Shown here: in pieces, positions 30,185-38,518 of the stretch | Numbering within the stretch: the stretch's first letter is position 1 | How the letters are laid out: the number at the start of each line of letters is the position of its first letter | The notes under the pieces: generated by a model | What the model was told of the DNA's origin: nothing | Seen by the model: the letters and a program-made list of their open reading frames with translations, nothing else | Databases searched by the model: none | Source of the DNA: Parabacteroides merdae ATCC 43184 | GTDB lineage: Bacteria > Bacteroidota > Bacteroidia > Bacteroidales > Tannerellaceae | Length of the DNA: 64,000 nt | Direction: 5' to 3' | Assembly: GCF_025151215.1 (NCBI RefSeq) | Contig: NZ_CP102286.1 | Location: forward strand, 1,798,001-1,862,000 | Translations under genes and position numbers: made by a program

Positions 30185-31435
30185 CTAGAATTTCTTTATC
30201 AGGAAAGACGGGGTTACCCTCAGATAAATCCCGGCAGAGAAACTGGTTTTGGCAAATGATTTATAGCCATTCTGCTCCGTACCGCGAAACACGACAGGCA
30301 AATGCTCATAGATATCCAAATCAATGCCAAGCGAAAAACCTTTTGCCAATTCACGCGAATACTCTAAGCCAAAGTAAACACAAGAAGGATCATCGAAGGT
30401 AAGACCTTCATCGGATGTCGAGACAGCTCCATAAAACGGACTGCCGAACATGGAAATAAACTGATGACACCTCCAATAGGAAGTCTTCACACGGAAATCG
30501 TAAATATCGGCAGATGCACGTGCATACACACCATAGCCGTTATCGAAAGACCACAACTTACCGGCCTGCTGATAATAGCCGGCAACATCCAGTTCCACAT
30601 TTACACTCTTGAATATCTTATGCCCCGTGTTCCACACTCCCCCAATTCCGACAGCACCGTTCATCAATGTCTGGACAGAATTGGTCAGGATCGTATCAAT
30701 CTCTCCTCCTCTGTGCTGGGCCAAAACTTGCAAAGGAGCATAAAAATGAAAACGCGAATCCGGATCGTTAAACTTGAAACGGGTAGACAAACCAACCGTA
30801 AAAGCCTCCTGATGGATATCTTCCCTGAAGATAAAACTTTCCCAATTCACCCACACATCCAAATCGAACCGGCAGGAATTATACAACAATTGCAATCCCA
30901 TCTCCGGATCGGCGACCATATTCAATTCCGGATTGTACAATGGCTCTATCAGATTATGATTGGCCGCCCCATACAAATCGCCCAGCACGATATTCACATG
31001 ATCAGACAAGGCCACCTGCGCCCGGAACCAAGGAAGTGCATGAAAACCTTTCTGATACTGATCACCTTTCCAATGCGCAATATCCTGATAAGCCATATTC
31101 GGATAGCGATTCGCCCCCCAAAAACGTTGCAAATGAACACCTGCTTCGAGTTTCAGCATTTCCAACGGATAATAGACAGCCTTTGCCTGCAACCAAAGTC
31201 CCGGCAATGTATAGCCTTTCATAAACGAACCGGTATACTCATCATCCTTAAAGAAACTCAGATTATCAAATTCGACCGAAAGTTCCCCTTTCTTTTCCGG
31301 ATCTATCTGGAAATCCGTCTTGAAAACGCGGTCCGGAATCTGGGCATAAAGTGTGTAGATAAATGAAGTACCCGCCAAACAGAACAGGAGACACAAACTA
31401 ATGCGCAAACAAGAAATATTTAAAAGACTTTTCAT
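30185..31435 (-). CDS. Putative outer-membrane beta-barrel protein
   Basis: 416 residues. The signal peptide runs to about residue 31 (LFCLAGTSFIYTLYAQ). The rest is rich in alternating hydrophobic/polar strands with aromatic ends, for example LKLEAGVHLQRFWGANRYP, RFDLDVWVNWESFIFRED and VKTSYWRCHQFISMFG. It ends in a beta-strand (FSAGIYLRVTPSFLIKKF). This pattern indicates a barrel in the outer membrane. I do not recognise a named family. It is monocistronic and converges on the small membrane protein gene. Confidence 0.72.
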   Translation of the reverse strand: MKSLLNISCLRISLCLLFCLAGTSFIYTLYAQIPDRVFKTDFQIDPEKKGELSVEFDNLSFFKDDEYTGSFMKGYTLPGLWLQAKAVYYPLEMLKLEAGVHLQRFWGANRYPNMAYQDIAHWKGDQYQKGFHALPWFRAQVALSDHVNIVLGDLYGAANHNLIEPLYNPELNMVADPEMGLQLLYNSCRFDLDVWVNWESFIFREDIHQEAFTVGLSTRFKFNDPDSRFHFYAPLQVLAQHRGGEIDTILTNSVQTLMNGAVGIGGVWNTGHKIFKSVNVELDVAGYYQQAGKLWSFDNGYGVYARASADIYDFRVKTSYWRCHQFISMFGSPFYGAVSTSDEGLTFDDPSCVYFGLEYSRELAKGFSLGIDLDIYEHLPVVFRGTEQNGYKSFAKTSFSAGIYLRVTPSFLIKKF

Positions 31436-31484
31436 CTATTACAAATTTAAGTACAAACGTAACAATTAAAAAGGAATAAACGAA

Positions 31485-31520
31485 GAACGGGGATACAGAA
31501 TCTTGTCCATATCCCCGTTC
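31485..31520 (-). terminator. Terminator after the RRM gene
   Basis: GAACGGGGATA pairs perfectly with TATCCCCGTTC. On the minus strand it is followed by TTCGTTTATTCCTTTTT. Confidence 0.7.
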
Positions 31521-31543
31521 GTATACTTTGATGCTATTATTTA

Positions 31544-31789
31544 TTAGCGTCTCGGTGTTGCTTCTTTTACAACCATCTGGCGACCTTCGTATTCAGCGCC
31601 GTTTAATTCTTCGATAGCGTTTCTTGCTTCGTTTTCGTTAGGAAGTTCTGCAAAAGCAAAGCCTTTAGAACGACGAGTATCGCGGTCAATGATCAATTTA
31701 ACTGATTCAACCGTACCGTACTCTTCCAAAACCTGTTGTAAGTCTGATTCTCTAACCCGATAGTTCAGGTTACCAATGTAAATATTCAT
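31544..31789 (-). CDS. RRM-type RNA-binding protein
   Basis: A single RNA recognition motif of 81 residues. RNP2 is IYIGNL (3-8) and RNP1 is KGFAFAEL (42-49); both carry the aromatic residues that stack on RNA. The tail KEATPRR is short and basic. Small RRM proteins are common in Bacteroidetes and cyanobacteria and are thought to act as RNA chaperones or post-transcriptional regulators; their targets are mostly unknown. It has its own terminator and an unusually long gap upstream. Confidence 0.93.
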   Translation of the reverse strand: MNIYIGNLNYRVRESDLQQVLEEYGTVESVKLIIDRDTRRSKGFAFAELPNENEARNAIEELNGAEYEGRQMVVKEATPRR

Positions 31790-32154
31790 ACAAAAAATGA
31801 TATAAAATAATTAATAAAAAATTGAAACAATAAAACTTTTAGGAAAGATCAATGTCTGCTAAATCATATTCTGCAATGAATATTAAGTCGGAGATAAAGA
31901 ACTACACAAACAGTTTTGCTTGTCGGGTACAAAGAAAAGCATTAAAAATGGATATTGCACCATGAAACCAAGATTTAATTCATAACAATTCAAAAAAAAC
32001 ACATAGAAAAGACTTTTCCCTAAGAACATCCTTAATAACCATAAAAAGTTTGAAAAAGAGGCTTCAATACAATAATATGTAAAAAAAGCCTATTTTATAG
32101 TATTTCTGACCAATTAAGCCAGCATATAGCCTTTTATGTCTCAACCAGAAAACC
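31790..32154. other. Gene-free AT-rich gap between two divergent genes
   Basis: No credible open reading frame was seen. The part next to the RRM gene is very AT-rich and may hold its promoter and a long leader, as is usual for cold-inducible RNA-binding proteins. Only a short GAAAAGACTTTTC palindrome near 32008 was noticed. Confidence 0.5.
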
Positions 32155-32162
32155 TAATTTTG
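32155..32162 (+). promoter_or_regulatory. -7 box for the inositol-3-phosphate synthase gene
   Basis: TAATTTTG lies 27 bases before the ATG at 32190. Confidence 0.4.
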
Positions 32163-32189
32163 CCCCAATCATTTTGAACTTAATTTGAC

Positions 32190-33482
32190 ATGGAAAAAAT
32201 CGAAGTTAAAGAAGCCAAAGGAAAACTTGGTATTCTGGTTGTTGGGGTAGGCGGTGCAGTTGCGACTACCATGATTACAGGTACGTTGGCTGCACGTAAA
32301 GGATTGGCTAAGCCTATCGGCTCAATCTCACAGTTAGCTACAATGCGTTTAGAAAACGGAGAAGAAAAAGCGATCAAAGATATTGTTCCTCTGACCGACC
32401 TGAATGACATCGTTTTCGGCGGATGGGATATTTTCCCTGATAATGCATACGAAGCGGCCCTATACGCAGAAGTCTTGAAAGAAAAAGACCTGAACGGCGT
32501 AAAAGACGAATTGGAGGCAATCAAACCGATGCCGGCCGCATTCGACCATAACTGGGCAAAACGTCTGAACGGCACACACATCAAACAGGCCGCTACCCGT
32601 TGGGACATGGTTGAACAGCTCCGCCAGGATATCCGTGAATTCAAGGCAGCCAACAACTGTGAACGTATCGCCGTTCTATGGGCTGCAAGTACGGAAATCT
32701 ATATTCCGCTGTCTGACGAGCACATGTCGCTTGCCGCTTTGGAAAAAGCAATGAAGGACAACAATACGGAAGCCGTTTCTCCAAGTATGTGCTACGCTTA
32801 TGCCGCTATAGCAGAAGGTGCTCCGTTCATCATGGGTGCTCCTAACCTGTGTGTAGACACTCCCGCCATGTGGGAATTCTCTAAAAAGATGAATGTGCCT
32901 ATCTCCGGTAAGGACTTCAAGAGCGGACAGACTTTAATGAAGACAGTACTGGCTCCGATGTTCAAAACCCGTATGTTAGGTGTAAGCGGCTGGTTCTCTA
33001 CCAATATCTTAGGAAACCGTGACGGCGAGGTATTGGACGATCCTGCAAACTTCAAGACAAAAGAGGTCAGCAAGCTATCTGTCATTGACAACATCTTCGA
33101 ACCCGAAAAATTCCCGGACCTGTATGGAGACGTATATCATAAGGTACGCATCAATTACTATCCTCCCCGCAAGGACAATAAAGAAGCATGGGACAATATC
33201 GACATCTTCGGCTGGATGGGTTACCCGATGGAAATCAAGGTAAACTTCCTTTGCCGCGACTCCATCCTAGCTGCCCCTATCGCACTCGACCTGGTGTTGT
33301 TCAGCGATCTGGCCCTGCGTGCCGGTATGTATGGTATCCAGACTTGGTTGTCTTTCTTCTGCAAGAGTCCGATGCACGACTTCGAACATCAGCCCGTACA
33401 TGACCTCTTCCAGCAATGGAGAATGGTTAAGCAGACGTTGCGCGATATGATCGGAGAAAAAGCCCCTAATTATTTGGACTAA
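32190..33482 (+). CDS. myo-Inositol-3-phosphate synthase
   Basis: Converts glucose-6-phosphate to L-myo-inositol-1-phosphate (1D-myo-inositol 3-phosphate) with NAD in the cytoplasm, the first step to inositol lipids. It is 430 residues. The NAD-binding motif GILVVGVGGAVATTMITGT is near residue 10. SGWFSTNILGNRDGEVL (about 265) and DSILAAPIALDLVLF are core catalytic and domain-closing segments of the family. The MIPS/PgpA/CDP-alcohol-transferase/PAP2 set matches the B. thetaiotaomicron BT_1522-BT_1526 inositol-lipid cluster. A terminator separates it from the next four genes, so it may be controlled separately. Confidence 0.95.
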   Translation: MEKIEVKEAKGKLGILVVGVGGAVATTMITGTLAARKGLAKPIGSISQLATMRLENGEEKAIKDIVPLTDLNDIVFGGWDIFPDNAYEAALYAEVLKEKDLNGVKDELEAIKPMPAAFDHNWAKRLNGTHIKQAATRWDMVEQLRQDIREFKAANNCERIAVLWAASTEIYIPLSDEHMSLAALEKAMKDNNTEAVSPSMCYAYAAIAEGAPFIMGAPNLCVDTPAMWEFSKKMNVPISGKDFKSGQTLMKTVLAPMFKTRMLGVSGWFSTNILGNRDGEVLDDPANFKTKEVSKLSVIDNIFEPEKFPDLYGDVYHKVRINYYPPRKDNKEAWDNIDIFGWMGYPMEIKVNFLCRDSILAAPIALDLVLFSDLALRAGMYGIQTWLSFFCKSPMHDFEHQPVHDLFQQWRMVKQTLRDMIGEKAPNYLD

Positions 33483-33500
33483 AATTCAGGGTAATATAAA

Positions 33501-33570
33501 TTTAGTTTCATAGGGATGAAACATTTGTTCCATCTTAGCGAAACTTTTGTTCCATGCCTATGAAACTAAA
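33501..33570. repeat. Inverted repeat with internal GAAAC-TTTGTTCCAT copies
   Basis: TTTAGTTTCATAGG (33501-33514) pairs perfectly with CCTATGAAACTAAA (33557-33570). The loop contains two near-direct copies, TGAAACATTTGTTCCAT and CGAAACTTTTGTTCCAT, which are themselves nearly palindromic. This looks like an interspersed intergenic element in the 3' region of the inositol phosphate synthase gene. Confidence 0.7.
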
Positions 33571-33593
33571 ATTTCATGCTGATGGAATTCTCG

Positions 33594-33639
33594 ATATAAC
33601 TTTCTCCCGGACGAGGGGGAAAGTTATATTATTTTTATA
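33594..33639 (+). terminator. Terminator between the inositol phosphate synthase and PgpA-like genes
   Basis: ATATAACTTTCTCCC (33594-33608) pairs with GGGGGAAAGTTATAT (33615-33629) with one G-T pair and a 6-base loop. TATTATTTTTAT follows. Confidence 0.8.
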
Positions 33640-33645
33640 ACTTTG
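33638..33645 (+). promoter_or_regulatory. -7 box for the PgpA-GtrA-transferase-PAP2 operon
   Basis: TAACTTTG lies 20 bases before the PgpA-like start, directly after the terminator. Confidence 0.5.
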
Positions 33646-33664
33646 CACACATTTTACTGACAGG

Positions 33665-34138
33665 ATGAAAAGAGTTCCACTAATTCATATTATTATTGCA
33701 ACAGGCTTTGGTTCCGGTTTTTCTCCGTTTGCTCCGGGAACGGCGGGAGCCTTGTTAGCTACGCTGATCTGGCTTGCATTGTCGTGCGCCGTATCTCCTA
33801 CTCTACTTCTTATTATAACCGCGTTATTGATCGGTATTTTTACGATTGCCGGTATCCGTTCGGCAAACGCAGTCGAACCTATTTGGGGAGAAGACCCTTC
33901 GCGGGTAGTAGTAGACGAAATGGTAGGTGTCTGGATTCCGCTTTTGGCAGCACCGGCCGGTAACTTGTGGTATGCTCTGGCAGCATTCGCGCTATTCCGC
34001 CTGTTCGATATTTTCAAGCCATTGGGTATACGCAAAATGGAATATCTCAAGGGAGGAGTCGGAGTAATGATGGATGATATTTTGGCTGGAATATATAGCC
34101 TCATCCTGCTAATAGTTGCAAGATGGTTGATTGGATAA
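33665..34138 (+). CDS. PgpA-family phosphatase, probably dephosphorylating phosphatidylinositol phosphate
   Basis: A 157-residue integral membrane phosphatase of the phosphatidylglycerophosphatase A family. GFGSGFSPFAPGTAGALLATL, DPSRVVVDEMVGVW and FRLFDIFKPLGIRKME carry the conserved acidic and basic residues of PgpA, and three to four hydrophobic segments are visible. In the inositol-lipid locus its likely substrate is phosphatidylinositol phosphate made by the CDP-alcohol transferase at 34647, rather than phosphatidylglycerophosphate. It overlaps the GtrA-like gene by 16 bases. The context-based substrate is an inference. Confidence 0.85.
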   Translation: MKRVPLIHIIIATGFGSGFSPFAPGTAGALLATLIWLALSCAVSPTLLLIITALLIGIFTIAGIRSANAVEPIWGEDPSRVVVDEMVGVWIPLLAAPAGNLWYALAAFALFRLFDIFKPLGIRKMEYLKGGVGVMMDDILAGIYSLILLIVARWLIG

Positions 34139-34629
34139 AGAAAAGTGCAAGAGCGTTTTCGGAGAAAGGCGGGATATTCATGTTTATACGAGCCCAATTT
34201 TCTTCACAAGTCGCCAGTACGACAGACTTTCTGGTCACAATCTTGTTGGTTAAATTATTTGGAGTTTATTACGTGTATGCAACCTTCACCGGTTCTGTCT
34301 GCGGCGGAATCGTAAATTGCATCATCAATTACAAATGGACATTCAAATCCAAAGAATGCAAGAAACGACATGTAATAGTCAAATATCTGCTAGTCTGGAT
34401 TGGTAGTATCTTATTGAATACCTGGGGAATTTACTTCATGACGGAAACGATCAGCCGGAATCCCTGGGTCCAGGAGACACTGAAACATTATATTGATGAC
34501 TTGTTCGTATTTTCCAAGATAGTAGTCTCACTGCTTGTCGGATTTCTTTGGAACTATAATATGCAACGTATCTTTGTCTACAAGAACTGTAGGATCAGGG
34601 ACCGTTTTCAGAAAGCGAACTCAAAATAA
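34123..34629 (+). CDS. GtrA-like four-helix membrane protein
   Basis: 168 residues with four membrane helices: TDFLVTILLVKLFGVYYVYA, GSVCGGIVNCIINY, VKYLLVWIGSILLNTWGIYF and SKIVVSLLVGFLWNYNMQ. NCIINYKWTF and WNYNMQRIFVYK are the two NxxxxxxxF-type motifs of the GtrA family. GtrA proteins are thought to flip polyprenyl-linked sugars. Within an inositol-lipid operon it could flip or deliver a lipid intermediate, for example phosphatidylinositol, to the PAP2 synthase. The first 15 residues are soluble and basic. The overlap with the PgpA-like gene shows translational coupling. The role is unproven. Confidence 0.82.
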   Translation: MVDWIKKSARAFSEKGGIFMFIRAQFSSQVASTTDFLVTILLVKLFGVYYVYATFTGSVCGGIVNCIINYKWTFKSKECKKRHVIVKYLLVWIGSILLNTWGIYFMTETISRNPWVQETLKHYIDDLFVFSKIVVSLLVGFLWNYNMQRIFVYKNCRIRDRFQKANSK

Positions 34630-34646
34630 AAACAAAATAGTAATAT

Positions 34647-35330
34647 ATGAAATTCAAAGTTTTTAGAGATTGGTTGCAACAGATGATCTACAAGATCATC
34701 AACCCGATCGTACATGGAATGATTAAAATTGGGATCACTCCCAATTTTATTACGACAACAGGATTAATCCTGAATATTGTGGCTGCTTGCATATTCCTTT
34801 ATGCCGGAATGAAAGGAGAACGAGGTGATTTCTACTATATCGGCTGGGGTGGCGGCATCATCTTGTTTGCCGGACTGTTCGACATGATGGACGGACAGGT
34901 TGCGCGTATCGGCAAAATGAGTTCCACATTCGGAGCCTTGTACGATTCGGTACTGGACCGCTACAGCGAACTGACGGTTTTCTTCGGGATATGTTTCTAC
35001 CTGATCAATCAGGGATATGTCATCAGTTCGATCGTCGCTTTCATTGCTTTGATCGGCTCATTAATGGTAAGCTATGTCCGCGCCCGTGCCGAAGGATTGG
35101 GACTTGAATGCAAAGTCGGTTTCATGCAACGTCCCGAACGCGTAGTGTTGACCGGATTAGGGGCTCTCTGCTGCGGTATCTTTGCACCCATGATGGAAAA
35201 CAACGAGATATTCGAACCGATCATGATATTCGTCATTCCTTTGCTGATCGTTGCGATATTCTCCAACATCACGGCATTCGCACGCCTGAATCATTGTCGT
35301 AAACTATTGAGCAGCAAAGATAACGAATGA
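34647..35330 (+). CDS. CDP-alcohol phosphatidyltransferase, probable phosphatidylinositol phosphate synthase
   Basis: Joins CDP-diacylglycerol to an alcohol, here most likely inositol phosphate, at the inner membrane. 227 residues with about six membrane helices. The full metal motif is present: Asp79, then Asp82-Gly83, Ala86-Arg87, Gly96, Asp100 and Asp104, with the exact D-x2-DG-x2-AR-x8-G-x3-D-x3-D spacing. [19 protein letters not shown] carries the basic residues expected to bind the phosphate of the inositol phosphate acceptor. It follows the GtrA gene by 17 bases and overlaps the PAP2 gene by 4 bases (ATGA). Confidence 0.92.
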
Positions 35331-36262
35331 AAGGAACAATTGTACTCCCGTCAAAGAAGGAGGCAGGGACTGTTATCGGCTTGACAGCGCTGTTTCTTTT
35401 GCTGACAGCCGTATGTATCGGATTACGCCCGGAGCATGTGTTCATGGTTGGGCTTTACCTCCTCCTCTTCTTCGCTGGCAAGACAACCCGTAAATTAGCT
35501 GTTGCCTTATTGCCATTCGCTCTTTTCGGCATTTCATACGACTGGATGCGTGTTTTCCCAAATTACGAGGCTAACTCGATTGACGTGGAAAACCTATATA
35601 ATCTGGAAAAAAGCTTGTTCGGTATAAATGATAATGGGAATATCCTAATTCCTTGTGAATATTTCGCGATCCATAATTGCCGGATTGCGGACATCCTTGC
35701 AGGTATATTTTATCTCTGCTGGGTTCCTGTTCCGATAGCTTTCGGATTGTGGCTCTATCTCAAGGGATACCGTAATTTGTACCTCCATTTCTCGATGGTA
35801 TTCCTGTTCGTCAACCTGATTGGCTTTGCCGGATACTATCTCCATCCGGCAGCACCACCTTGGTATGCAATCAATTATGGTTTTGAACCGATACTCGACA
35901 CACCGGGCAATGTTGCCGGTCTCGGCAGGTTCGACACATTGACCGGCCTTTCTATCTTCGATTCCATCTATGGCCGCAACGCAAACGTATTCGCAGCAGT
36001 TCCATCATTACATGCTGCATATATGGTTGTGGCACTATGTTATGCGATTGTCAATAAATGCAATAAATTTGTGATTATCCTGTTTGCCATCATCATGGCG
36101 GGAATTTGGGGAACAGCAGTTTACACCTCACATCACTATATTATAGATGTGACATTGGGAATCTGTTGCGCTCTTTTAGGAATCCTGCTTTTCGAAAAAG
36201 GATTGATGAAGACAGGCTGGTTCAAAAACTTCTTCAACCGATATTATAATTACATTAAATAA
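35327..36262 (+). CDS. PAP2-superfamily synthase, probable inositol phosphorylceramide synthase (AUR1-like)
   Basis: A 311-residue membrane enzyme with about seven helices, predicted to move inositol phosphate from phosphatidylinositol to ceramide. The PAP2 motifs are [12 protein letters not shown] (about 168), [10 protein letters not shown] (about 224, first catalytic His) and [10 protein letters not shown] (about 266, second His and Asp). The order and spacing are those of fungal AUR1 and the Bacteroides enzyme encoded beside MIPS. Ceramide synthesis genes are not in the window. The stop codon opens the hairpin at 36261, which probably ends the operon. Confidence 0.88.
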
Positions 36263-36298
36263 TGTGCCAATGAAAGAATTTCTTCGTATTGGCACATT
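36261..36298 (+). terminator. Hairpin terminator after the PAP2 gene
   Basis: AATGTGCCAAT (36261-36271) pairs with ATTGGCACATT (36288-36298), with extra pairing near the loop. The downstream ATTATTCATT is only weakly U-rich, so termination may be partial. Confidence 0.6.
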
Positions 36299-36329
36299 AT
36301 TCATTGCATCTTGACCTTTTTTGAAGTAG

Positions 36330-36373
36330 CATGACATCCTAACTTTGCCACAAATAAAAGTTAGGATGTCATG
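36330..36373 (+). promoter_or_regulatory. Perfect 17-bp palindrome spanning the -7 box and start codon of the lipoprotein phosphoesterase
   Basis: CATGACATCCTAACTTT (36330-36346) pairs perfectly with AAAGTTAGGATGTCATG (36357-36373) across a 10-base loop. The left arm contains the -7 box TAACTTTG (36340-36347); the right arm ends on the ATG of the next gene. A transcript would start near 36353 and have a leader of about 18 bases. As DNA it is a candidate repressor operator. As RNA only the right arm would be transcribed, so it is not a simple attenuator. Confidence 0.7.
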
Positions 36374-37177
36374 TATAAACAAACTCTACCATTATTCCTA
36401 TGCATATTCTTGTCTGCATGTGATCTGATCGATTACCATCCGTATGACGGCCGGCTCACCATTTCCGAACGCGATATCAACGACCACAACATCCCGCTTA
36501 TCGAGGCAGCAACAAAAGATAAAGACACGATCCGCTTCGTCCTGATGGGCGATACCCAACGTAGCTACGACGAGACAGAAGATTTCGTAAAACATATCAA
36601 TACTAAAAAAGACAGCATCGATTTCATCATACACGGAGGAGACTATACCGAGTTCGGCATGAAGAAAGAGTACGAGTGGACTGTCAATATCCTGTCGAAG
36701 CTCGATATCCCGTATGTCGGATTGATCGGTAACCATGACGTAATCGGCAATGGTGACCAGGTTTTCAACAAATTGTTCGGAGAAGAAAACTTTTCCTTTA
36801 TCGTCCGGGACGTCAAATTCGTTTGCCTCAATACCAATGCGATCGAATACGACTACTCCCACCCTGTCCCTGATTTCGGTTTTCTGAAAGAAGAGCTGCA
36901 AGACAGTACCCGGCATTACAGCCGCACGATCGTCGCCATGCATGCACGTCCCGGAAGCGAACAGTTCGATAACAATGTAAAAGACGTATTTCAGCTATAT
37001 ATCCGTGAATTTCCCTCTTTGCTGTTTTGCCTGAACGCACATAACCATCAGTTACAGGTGGAAGACCTTTTTGACGATGGGATCATCTACTACGGCTGTA
37101 GCAATATAGCCAAACGTAACTACCTATTATTTACCCTAACCCCGGACGGCTACACGTATGAAATTATCAATTTTTAA
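36371..37177 (+). CDS. Lipoprotein metallophosphoesterase
   Basis: A 268-residue lipoprotein (lipobox LSAC, Cys17) with a calcineurin-like fold. The metal motifs are MGDTQRSY (Gln replacing the usual His of DxH), HGGDYTEFG, GNHDVIGN, MHARPG and NAHNHQ. It lies directly after the inositol-lipid genes and overlaps the following gene by 20 bases. A phosphoesterase on the periplasmic side beside inositol phospholipid genes could remodel or degrade inositol phosphate headgroups; that is inference. It starts within a perfect palindrome that also covers its promoter, which suggests tight control. Its relation to BT_1522-1526-type clusters in other species is unknown to me. Confidence 0.85.
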   Translation: MYKQTLPLFLCIFLSACDLIDYHPYDGRLTISERDINDHNIPLIEAATKDKDTIRFVLMGDTQRSYDETEDFVKHINTKKDSIDFIIHGGDYTEFGMKKEYEWTVNILSKLDIPYVGLIGNHDVIGNGDQVFNKLFGEENFSFIVRDVKFVCLNTNAIEYDYSHPVPDFGFLKEELQDSTRHYSRTIVAMHARPGSEQFDNNVKDVFQLYIREFPSLLFCLNAHNHQLQVEDLFDDGIIYYGCSNIAKRNYLLFTLTPDGYTYEIINF

Positions 37178-37799
37178 ATGGATGCTCTTATTTCTTTTCC
37201 TGGCCGGCACTTTACAGGCACAGGAGGAAATCGAGGATGATGTGCGATATAAAAAACGCGTAGAAAAATATATATCCAGATGGGAAAAACTCATTCCCCA
37301 CTATACCAAGCTACAGTTCGCCGGATCAATGGGTATGCTTTCCCTCGGAACAGGTTGGAATTATTATCGTAATCACTGGGAAACAGATGTATATTTGGGG
37401 ATAGTTCCCCGCAACTCGGATCGCCATGCTATGGCAACCCTTACACTCAAACAGAATTATTACCCTTGGAACATCCGTATCGCCGACAAGTTATCTTTCG
37501 AACCTCTCGCCTGCGGTGTCTATATCAATACTCTTTTAGATCGCGATTTCTGGGGCAAGCAGCCGGACAAATATCCGCAAGGCTATTACTGGTTCTCTAC
37601 TCGCATCCGTACCCATGTTTTCATTGGAGAGCGATTCACATTGAAGCTAGACACAAAAAAGAGCTGGCATAAATCCATCTCTTTCTTTTACGAACTCAGT
37701 ACCTGTGACCTATATCTGATAAACAAGATCGGGAACGGTTATCTGAAACCCAAAGACTATCTGAGCCTCTCGTTCGGTCTCAAACTACAAATCTTGTAA
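37158..37799 (+). CDS. Exported protein of unknown function, probably outer membrane
   Basis: 213 residues with a signal peptide (MKLSIFKWMLLFLFLAGTLQAQ). A charged segment (EEIEDDVRYKKRVEKYISRWEKL) precedes a series of beta-strand-like stretches: LQFAGSMGMLSLGTGWNYY, WETDVYLGIVP, ATLTLKQNYYPWNIRI and a final DYLSLSFGLKLQIL. This looks like a small 8-strand barrel with an N-terminal helix. I do not recognise the family. The 20-base overlap with the phosphoesterase gene implies the two are translated together and act together. Confidence 0.75.
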   Translation: MKLSIFKWMLLFLFLAGTLQAQEEIEDDVRYKKRVEKYISRWEKLIPHYTKLQFAGSMGMLSLGTGWNYYRNHWETDVYLGIVPRNSDRHAMATLTLKQNYYPWNIRIADKLSFEPLACGVYINTLLDRDFWGKQPDKYPQGYYWFSTRIRTHVFIGERFTLKLDTKKSWHKSISFFYELSTCDLYLINKIGNGYLKPKDYLSLSFGLKLQIL

Positions 37800-37800
37800 A

Positions 37801-37838
37801 GCAAAAAACGGGAGGTGTCATTACGACAGCCTCCCGTT
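37801..37838 (-). terminator. Rho-independent terminator of the beta-barrel/DUF4136 unit
   Basis: On the minus strand AACGGGAGGCTGTC pairs with GACACCTCCCGTT around GTAAT, followed by TTTTTT. The stem may also stop plus-strand transcription from 37799. Confidence 0.88.
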
Positions 37839-37879
37839 CCCCATAAACTACATAAAACACTTAAAAGAACAAACTTCCA

Positions 37880-38518
37880 TTAGAAGGCAAGACCTAATCG
37901 GATGCCCCAGTTATTCAATCCATCGATCGAATAACTCAGGACTTCTCCTTTATTGGTTGCATAATTATAGTAGGCAGCGACATGCAGACCGATCTGTTTC
38001 TGAGGTGTAAAATACATAGTCATACCGATTTCGGGAGATACATAGAAACCCCAATTACGGTCGTATACTTTCATTACATTCATATAAGTCGACATTTCAC
38101 TATAGCTTGCACCTAACTGCACACCAGCATAAGGCTGGAACTGGCTTTCGGGAGCTACGTTGTAACGAAAAGCTGCACCAAAAGGCAACTGAAAGATAGA
38201 ATGCTGCTGATCAGAAGTGATGGCCGATGTAGAACTTACCGGCAACGTCTGACGGTCGATATACTTATTGTTGGTATGATAAGAGATAAATGCACCTACC
38301 GAGAAATTAGGAATTACATAATAACCGGCTTCCGCATGTGCTCCCCAACCACTTGTCTTGTCTGAGAAATCCTGGCTGAACGGAGAATTAATCTGCCAGT
38401 CAACATTAAAATACATGTTCTTTACAACCTGGGCACCAGCCAGGGAAGGTATCGCTAAACAGGCAACAAGTAAAGCGATTAATTTTATTGATTTATATAT
38501 CTTTTTCATAAGACTCAT
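37880..38518 (-). CDS. Outer-membrane beta-barrel protein (OMP_b-brl type)
   Basis: 212 residues. The signal peptide (MKKIYKSIKLIALLVACLAIPSLAGAQ) begins at the fourth residue; a start at 38509 is equally possible. Strand-like segments HAEAGYYVIPNFSVGAFISY, LPFGAAFRYNVAPESQFQPY, LQLGAS-type turns and the C-terminal NNWGIRLGLAF mark a small 8-strand porin-like barrel. It lies 24 bases after the DUF4136 lipoprotein gene and ends at a strong terminator, so the two form one unit. The function is unknown. Confidence 0.8.
   Translation of the reverse strand: MSLMKKIYKSIKLIALLVACLAIPSLAGAQVVKNMYFNVDWQINSPFSQDFSDKTSGWGAHAEAGYYVIPNFSVGAFISYHTNNKYIDRQTLPVSSTSAITSDQQHSIFQLPFGAAFRYNVAPESQFQPYAGVQLGASYSEMSTYMNVMKVYDRNWGFYVSPEIGMTMYFTPQKQIGLHVAAYYNYATNKGEVLSYSIDGLNNWGIRLGLAF

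Follow-up and report, generated by a model that had tools for sequence, protein, structure and literature searches.

We analysed a stretch of 64,000 nt from the genome of Parabacteroides merdae ATCC 43184 (4.38 Mb, single contig); this whole stretch is the window, and positions below are its own. Between 32190 and 36262 it carries an inositol-lipid cluster of the kind known from Bacteroides thetaiotaomicron BT_1522-BT_1526 (“BT-like” hereafter), followed on the same strand by two genes (36371-37799) encoding a phosphoesterase lipoprotein (MPE) and an exported barrel protein (BAR). Our preferred reading, to which we give a probability of about 0.5, is that MPE-BAR is an autonomous outer-membrane phosphodiesterase-barrel module that has repeatedly been recruited beside inositol-lipid clusters, inositol lipids being one of its possible substrates. 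The seven same-strand genes of the initial annotation were all recovered: a sequence and open reading frame (ORF) check found each of them intact, on the + strand and with unchanged coordinates, and the assigned families were confirmed by Pfam and NCBIfam.

The two genes of the pair overlap by 20 nt:

36371-37177, + strand: MPE, a lipoprotein (Cys17) with a calcineurin-like phosphoesterase fold, predicted envelope phosphodiesterase (PF00149, 47.9 bits, cut-off 21.5).
37158-37799, + strand: BAR, exported, predicted eight-stranded outer-membrane barrel with an N-terminal helix (AlphaFold2); no Pfam or NCBIfam family at E 0.1.

By its PF00149 score and conserved Asp/Asn/His site MPE belongs to the calcineurin-like superfamily. 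Its metal site is complete (D61, D91, N121, H122, H191, H224 and H226) and Cys17 is lipobox-like, in agreement with its first description as a lipoprotein phosphoesterase. In class III phosphodiesterases of the GpdQ and Rv0805 type, motif I is D-x-H. MPE lacks this motif, having GDTQ and not GDxH; the position is Q in 77, H in 24 and G in 2 of 103 relatives. As modelled, the protein shares its fold and metal-site residues with GpdQ, Rv0805, acid sphingomyelinase and SMPDL3, but it differs from them in the GDTQ motif, in a lipid anchor with a conserved post-cysteine stretch and in its partner barrel, and the identity is 14-19%. This likeness of fold leads us to predict phosphodiesterase activity for MPE. 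A surface location had also been suggested. The Bacteroidetes signal for surface lipoproteins, as given in the portion of PMC5080379 consulted, is K-(D/E)2, Q-A-(D/E)2 or an SDDDD-like run at +2 to +6. MPE has DLIDY after Cys17, with no two acidic residues adjacent, and surface exposure through the known export signal was therefore rejected.

The AlphaFold2 model of BAR has eight strands (mean pLDDT 76, pTM 0.63) and the N-terminus is signal-like; together with the gene overlap, this bears out the earlier description of an overlapping, exported, barrel-like protein. When PDB sequences were searched with a profile of BAR, all matches were at chance level, and Foldseek returned generic structural matches, none at E 0.001 or better. 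Lipid enzymes of the PagP, PagL and OMPLA type carry an invariant catalytic histidine on the barrel. None of the histidines of BAR reached 80% conservation among 57 aligned sequences, or 90% among 95, and the most frequent one, H153, was present in 67 of 103. With no invariant histidine and only generic structural matches, a PagP-, PagL- or OMPLA-like enzyme was rejected. BAR thus differs from the small barrels OprF/OmpA domain, PagP, PagL and NspA, without a histidine conserved at the 80% level and without a PDB sequence relative above chance. The window protein is 97% identical to its counterpart in Parabacteroides massiliensis.

MPE and BAR form a near-obligate pair. Among 159 genomes sampled from the order, BAR was present in 27 and MPE in 29, and all 27 BAR genomes also encoded MPE, in the same orientation and no more than about 600 nt away. 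The MPE-only genomes were G088, whose weak match lies within a frame of 644 aa, and G098, where the frame has two stops. In the best 80 of 115 relatives MPE was directly upstream of BAR at 78 loci; at the two exceptions (L150 and L197) the contig ends 108 and 360 bases from the start of BAR. The exact 20-nt overlap recurred in 19 of 25 pairs linked to inositol-lipid genes and in 34 of 78 unlinked pairs. BAR was found in 24 of the 38 genomes of the genus (three by fragments shorter than 125 residues) and, in an alignment search that scored up to 12 candidates per genome, in at least 8 of 247 genomes of the phylum.

To place the pair in context, a neighbor was counted as an inositol-lipid gene if, in the stretch fetched, tblastn matched it to a protein of the window or of locus L122 (E 1e-10, at least 40% of the length); loci on short contigs or with only distant homologues are scored as “none” in these counts. 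The loci came from sets of 57 and 80 (the best 80 of 115 relatives), which overlap because several species occur in both, and of which 4 and 11 were without a usable pair in the ORF calls. With the window this gave 123 pair loci, or 103 after near-identical ones were dropped. Inositol-lipid genes were scored as none at 86 of the 123, while 24 had an alternative cluster, 11 a BT-like cluster and 2 MIPS (myo-inositol-phosphate synthase) only. The 80-locus set itself held 6 BT-like, 11 alternative and 1 MIPS-only loci. In a family sample of 98 genomes, 32 carried BAR, and in 19 of these the pair was beside an inositol-lipid cluster (5 BT-like, 14 alternative).

In the order sample, MIPS was matched (E 1e-30) in 11 of 27 pair genomes compared to 12 of 132 others (Fisher p = 1.7e-4, kinship ignored), and 16 of the 27 had no match at this threshold. 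Where a genome had both, pair and MIPS were side by side in 3 of 11 (G000, G105 and G078). Six order-sample genomes exceeded the cut-off of NF052609, the phosphoinositol dihydroceramide synthase model: the pair was adjacent in G000 and G105, elsewhere in G059 and G139, and absent from G019 and G068. The pair was also present in B. fragilis (L201 and L209), which is reported, in the portion of PMC9246714 consulted, not to produce inositol lipids. The initial annotation had proposed that the pair is an undescribed step of the inositol-lipid pathway, and had named a survey of its conservation beside MIPS, in which finding the genes elsewhere without lipid genes would count against it. This is what the 86 of 123 loci and the 16 of 27 genomes show, and the proposal is weakened because the pair is widespread without the pathway.

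The alternative cluster is of the CDP-inositol type, as far as its partial description in PMC9246714 goes, and is found in Parabacteroides and Massilibacteroides with MIPS on one side and the same pair on the other. It consists of an NTP transferase, a 285-aa protein, a CDP-alcohol transferase and a HAD protein, and its core enzymes differ from the BT-type core of the window, save for the CDP-alcohol transferase superfamily. In the reduced set of 103, an LpxZ-family gene flanks all 8 BT-like loci and 8 of the 15 alternative ones, and a small exported gene pair lies downstream in 6 and 4 of these 8 and 15 loci, respectively. The two core types thus have similar flanks, and in Parabacteroides the core that separates MIPS from the pair was therefore apparently swapped in place, with MIPS itself, the pair and the flanking regions retained.

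The 285-aa protein (L122, 6132-6989) is a constant member of the 14 alternative clusters of the family sample, with no Pfam family and weak matches to the RimK and MptN ligases, which we take to be ATP-grasp-like. It is not listed in the part of PMC9246714 consulted. Two loci, L111 (genome G241) and L127 (G181), combine the alternative set with the pair but lack MIPS, both locally and, at E 1e-30, in the genome as a whole.

A FastTree tree of the 103 joined MPE-BAR pairs put the linked ones at three places. A Tannerellaceae clade of 28 (support 88) contains 13 alternative, 8 BT-like and 7 unlinked pairs; L091 and L174, with MIPS directly upstream, group together (support 99); and L128 and L130, ordered as the pair, a DUF5686-type protein, MIPS and the alternative set, form the third group (support 100). 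Labelling the tree with four context states took 8 changes, compared to a mean of 24 for shuffled labels. Of its 100 inner branches 32 are weak, and the tree may also be compatible with a single origin of linkage and later losses. The earlier claim that the pair is tied to inositol lipids thus survives in part: linkage recurs at three tree places and with two biosynthetic cores, but a role as a pathway step is not supported. The weaker claim, a functional association of the pair that is seen repeatedly, beside two unrelated pathways, stands.

At L091 and L174, where the pair directly follows MIPS, no phosphatidylinositol (PI)-synthesis core was found in the fetched stretch. In other families (L099, L100, L101 and L108) the pair lies near genes for an MMPL transporter and a LolA-like protein; L099 and L101 also encode a 299-aa protein without a Pfam match whose HSNGQ motif, we presume, resembles that of outer-membrane phospholipase A. 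These neighbors hint at a context of lipid transport.

We compared residues between 21 linked Tannerellaceae pairs and 45 unlinked pairs, and then checked the distinguishing residues in the other two linked lineages. BAR Ser57 (window 37326-37328) was present in all 25 linked pairs and in 10 of the 78 unlinked ones, and BAR Asp128 in 22 and 9 of these, respectively; both residues had been selected from all columns of both proteins. MPE N127 and Q198 were rejected as linkage residues, being frequent also in distant unlinked pairs. The supported branches of the tree provide just three independent comparisons, a number with which no test can reach 0.05, and Ser57 tracks linkage in at most one of them; these associations are therefore a lead at best and not evidence.

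A gap of 108 nt divides the synthase gene that ends the cluster from the MPE gene. It holds a hairpin and a promoter-like box:

36258-36301, + strand: hairpin overlapping the end of the synthase gene, with no U-tract directly 3'.
36330-36373, + strand: perfect 17-bp inverted repeat that encloses the box TAACTTTG and extends to the MPE start codon.
36340-36347, + strand: promoter-like box TAACTTTG, within the inverted repeat.

The hairpin is stable (the 76-nt piece 36255-36330 folds with -20.3 kcal/mol; z -4.0 compared to shuffles). We rejected it as a terminator between two units, because the terminator pattern scan omitted it and no U-tract follows directly. Palindromes with the same core as the inverted repeat occur at L109 (17-bp arms), L111 (16), L149 (14), L160 (11) and L163 (11); none was found in the near relatives L146, L147 and L148, although the box is retained there. 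The box TAnnTTTG, which we take to be the Bacteroidetes -7 element, was present in the final 130 nt examined in 53 of 103 pairs compared to 7.6% of mononucleotide shuffles. These data indicate that MPE-BAR is probably transcribed from a promoter of its own, even at loci adjoining inositol genes. At L165, L166 and L168, all from Massilibacteroides, the gap measures 8-40 nt and the box is missing; there the pair may be co-transcribed.

The five genes upstream of the pair are adjacent and in BT order, and an LpxZ-family gene lies before them on the opposite strand:

32190-33482, + strand: MIPS (PF07994 342 bits, PF01658 122 bits).
33665-34138, + strand: PgpA-like phosphatase (PF04608 142 bits), counterpart of the phosphatidylinositol-phosphate (PIP) phosphatase BT_1525; function predicted from position and from the part of PMC9246714 consulted.
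34123-34629, + strand: GtrA-like membrane protein (PF04138 56 bits), counterpart of BT_1524; the initial annotation proposed it as a candidate lipid flippase.
34647-35330, + strand: CDP-alcohol transferase, PIP synthase of the BT_1523 type (PF01066; NF052561 PIPSynBT1523 388 bits, cut-off 350).
35327-36262, + strand: PAP2/AUR1-like protein, phosphoinositol dihydroceramide synthase of the BT_1522 type (PF14378; NF052609 PhinosDhcerSyn 559 bits, cut-off 480).
30185-31435, - strand: LpxZ-family protein upstream of the cluster (NF052651 539 bits, cut-off 460).

All Pfam matches of the five synthesis genes exceed their cut-offs. With both NCBIfam models above cut-off and the gene order the same, the proposed likeness to BT_1522-BT_1526 was confirmed, and 32190-36262 is an inositol-lipid cluster of this already known kind. 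Gene set and order are identical to those of B. thetaiotaomicron in the accounts of PMC9246714 and PMC8791184, which, in the portions consulted, make no mention of an MPE-BAR pair: metallophosphoesterase and calcineurin wording is absent from the main text of the former, and phosphoesterase wording from that of the latter. BT_1521 and BT_1527 are reported, in the literature consulted in part, as accessory shared neighbors of the BT-like cluster. The ten window genes scanned (30185-38518) include a homologue of neither, those two proteins not having been used as queries, and tblastn found a DUF5686 protein at 0 of 8 BT-like loci. The LpxZ family is named for the lipid A deacylase of Porphyromonas gingivalis (PMC11784228, consulted in part).

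Transposon phenotypes have been published for the counterpart cluster in P. merdae (PMC12669032, main text). The five synthesis genes are named there as one phenotypic block of BT_1522-6 homologues under NQ542 tags, with NQ542_07540 as the putative PIP phosphatase. The reported phenotype is chemical sensitivity, the five genes being enriched with PFNA and depleted with TBBPA, and the inositol-lipid genes affecting resistance to the pollutant PFNA. By gene order MPE and BAR would be the two tags after NQ542_07555, 07560 and 07565. Both are absent from that main text, outside which the per-gene tables lie, and this suggests that the pair was neutral in the screen. The pair is probably not a step of inositol-lipid synthesis, because it has its own box, 86 of 123 loci are without inositol-lipid genes, B. 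fragilis has the pair and the screen names only five genes.

Several other explanations bear on the same evidence. One possibility, which we consider unlikely, is that the pair is dedicated to turnover or remodelling of inositol lipids: MPE would act on PI and PI-dihydroceramide like a phospholipase C or as a glycerophosphodiesterase, BAR would present the lipid, and pairs elsewhere would be paralogues with other substrates. The linkage to MIPS clusters at three tree places, in BT-like, CDP-inositol-type and MIPS-only neighborhoods, is consistent with this, as are the linked share of the family sample, the co-occurrence with MIPS above chance when kinship is ignored, the distribution of Ser57 and the fold common to MPE and acid sphingomyelinase. 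However, most pair carriers of the order sample are without a MIPS match, the pair is present in only four of the six NF052609 genomes and adjacent in two, the three tree comparisons yield nothing firm, and the pair genes are not named with the PFNA block in the main text. Equally doubtful is positional hitchhiking, in which the pair would lie beside the cluster through ancestral Parabacteroides gene order, unrelated to inositol lipids. It would account for the flanks common to both core types (LpxZ and RRM upstream, two small exported genes downstream), for the pair's own promoter-like box and for 21 of the 25 linked pairs falling within one clade, but not for the two further linked lineages (L091/L174 and L128/L130), whose flanks are different.

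Nutrient scavenging is far less probable still. Here the pair would cleave dietary or host phosphodiesters (glycerophosphoinositol, nucleotides or sphingomyelin) at the cell surface for phosphate or inositol. The GpdQ-like fold of MPE would suit such a role, and many pairs lie among genes other than those of lipid synthesis, some efflux- or signalling-like by eye. On the other hand, Cys17 is not followed by the surface-export signal, and no recurring Sus-like uptake genes were noticed beside the pair, although no scan was aimed at them.

Under the reading we prefer, that of an autonomous module, the locus would consist of two units. The first (32190-36262) would be the BT-type cluster making PI and phosphoinositol dihydroceramide; the second (36371-37799) would be a two-gene outer-membrane module with its own promoter, dispensable for inositol-lipid synthesis. 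MPE would be a lipoprotein with a two-metal phosphodiesterase domain, kept beside a small closed eight-stranded barrel that it probably contacts through the conserved residues immediately following the lipidated cysteine. The module would most likely hydrolyse phosphodiester head groups, or fragments of these, on the side of the outer membrane that faces the periplasm. Where it lies beside an inositol-lipid cluster, plausible but non-exclusive substrates are inositol phospholipids or products of their breakdown. Of this picture, the gene content, the near-obligate pairing, the conserved metal site, the promoter-like box and the contexts are observed here and the folds are models, whereas the enzymatic activity, the physical complex, the membrane side and the substrate are predictions.

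A bolder and improbable version is that MPE-BAR is an undescribed outer-membrane lipid-handling complex that, in Parabacteroides and its kin, serves the last, envelope-side stage of inositol-lipid metabolism, whichever of the two unrelated routes supplies the lipid. If so, the phosphodiesterase would work on or through the barrel, and turnover or head-group release would have been kept while the synthetic core was exchanged in place.

No MPE-BAR-like pair is mentioned in the titles and abstracts among the literature matches listed, and the pair defines a recurrent two-protein module with a barrel outside the Pfam and NCBIfam families. Inositol lipids of gut Bacteroidota affect the capsule, antimicrobial-peptide resistance and host fitness (PMC9246714, in the part consulted), while the portions of the inositol-lipid literature examined do not describe their fate after synthesis. 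The pair, which accompanies two unrelated synthetic routes, is a concrete, deletable candidate for that post-synthesis fate.

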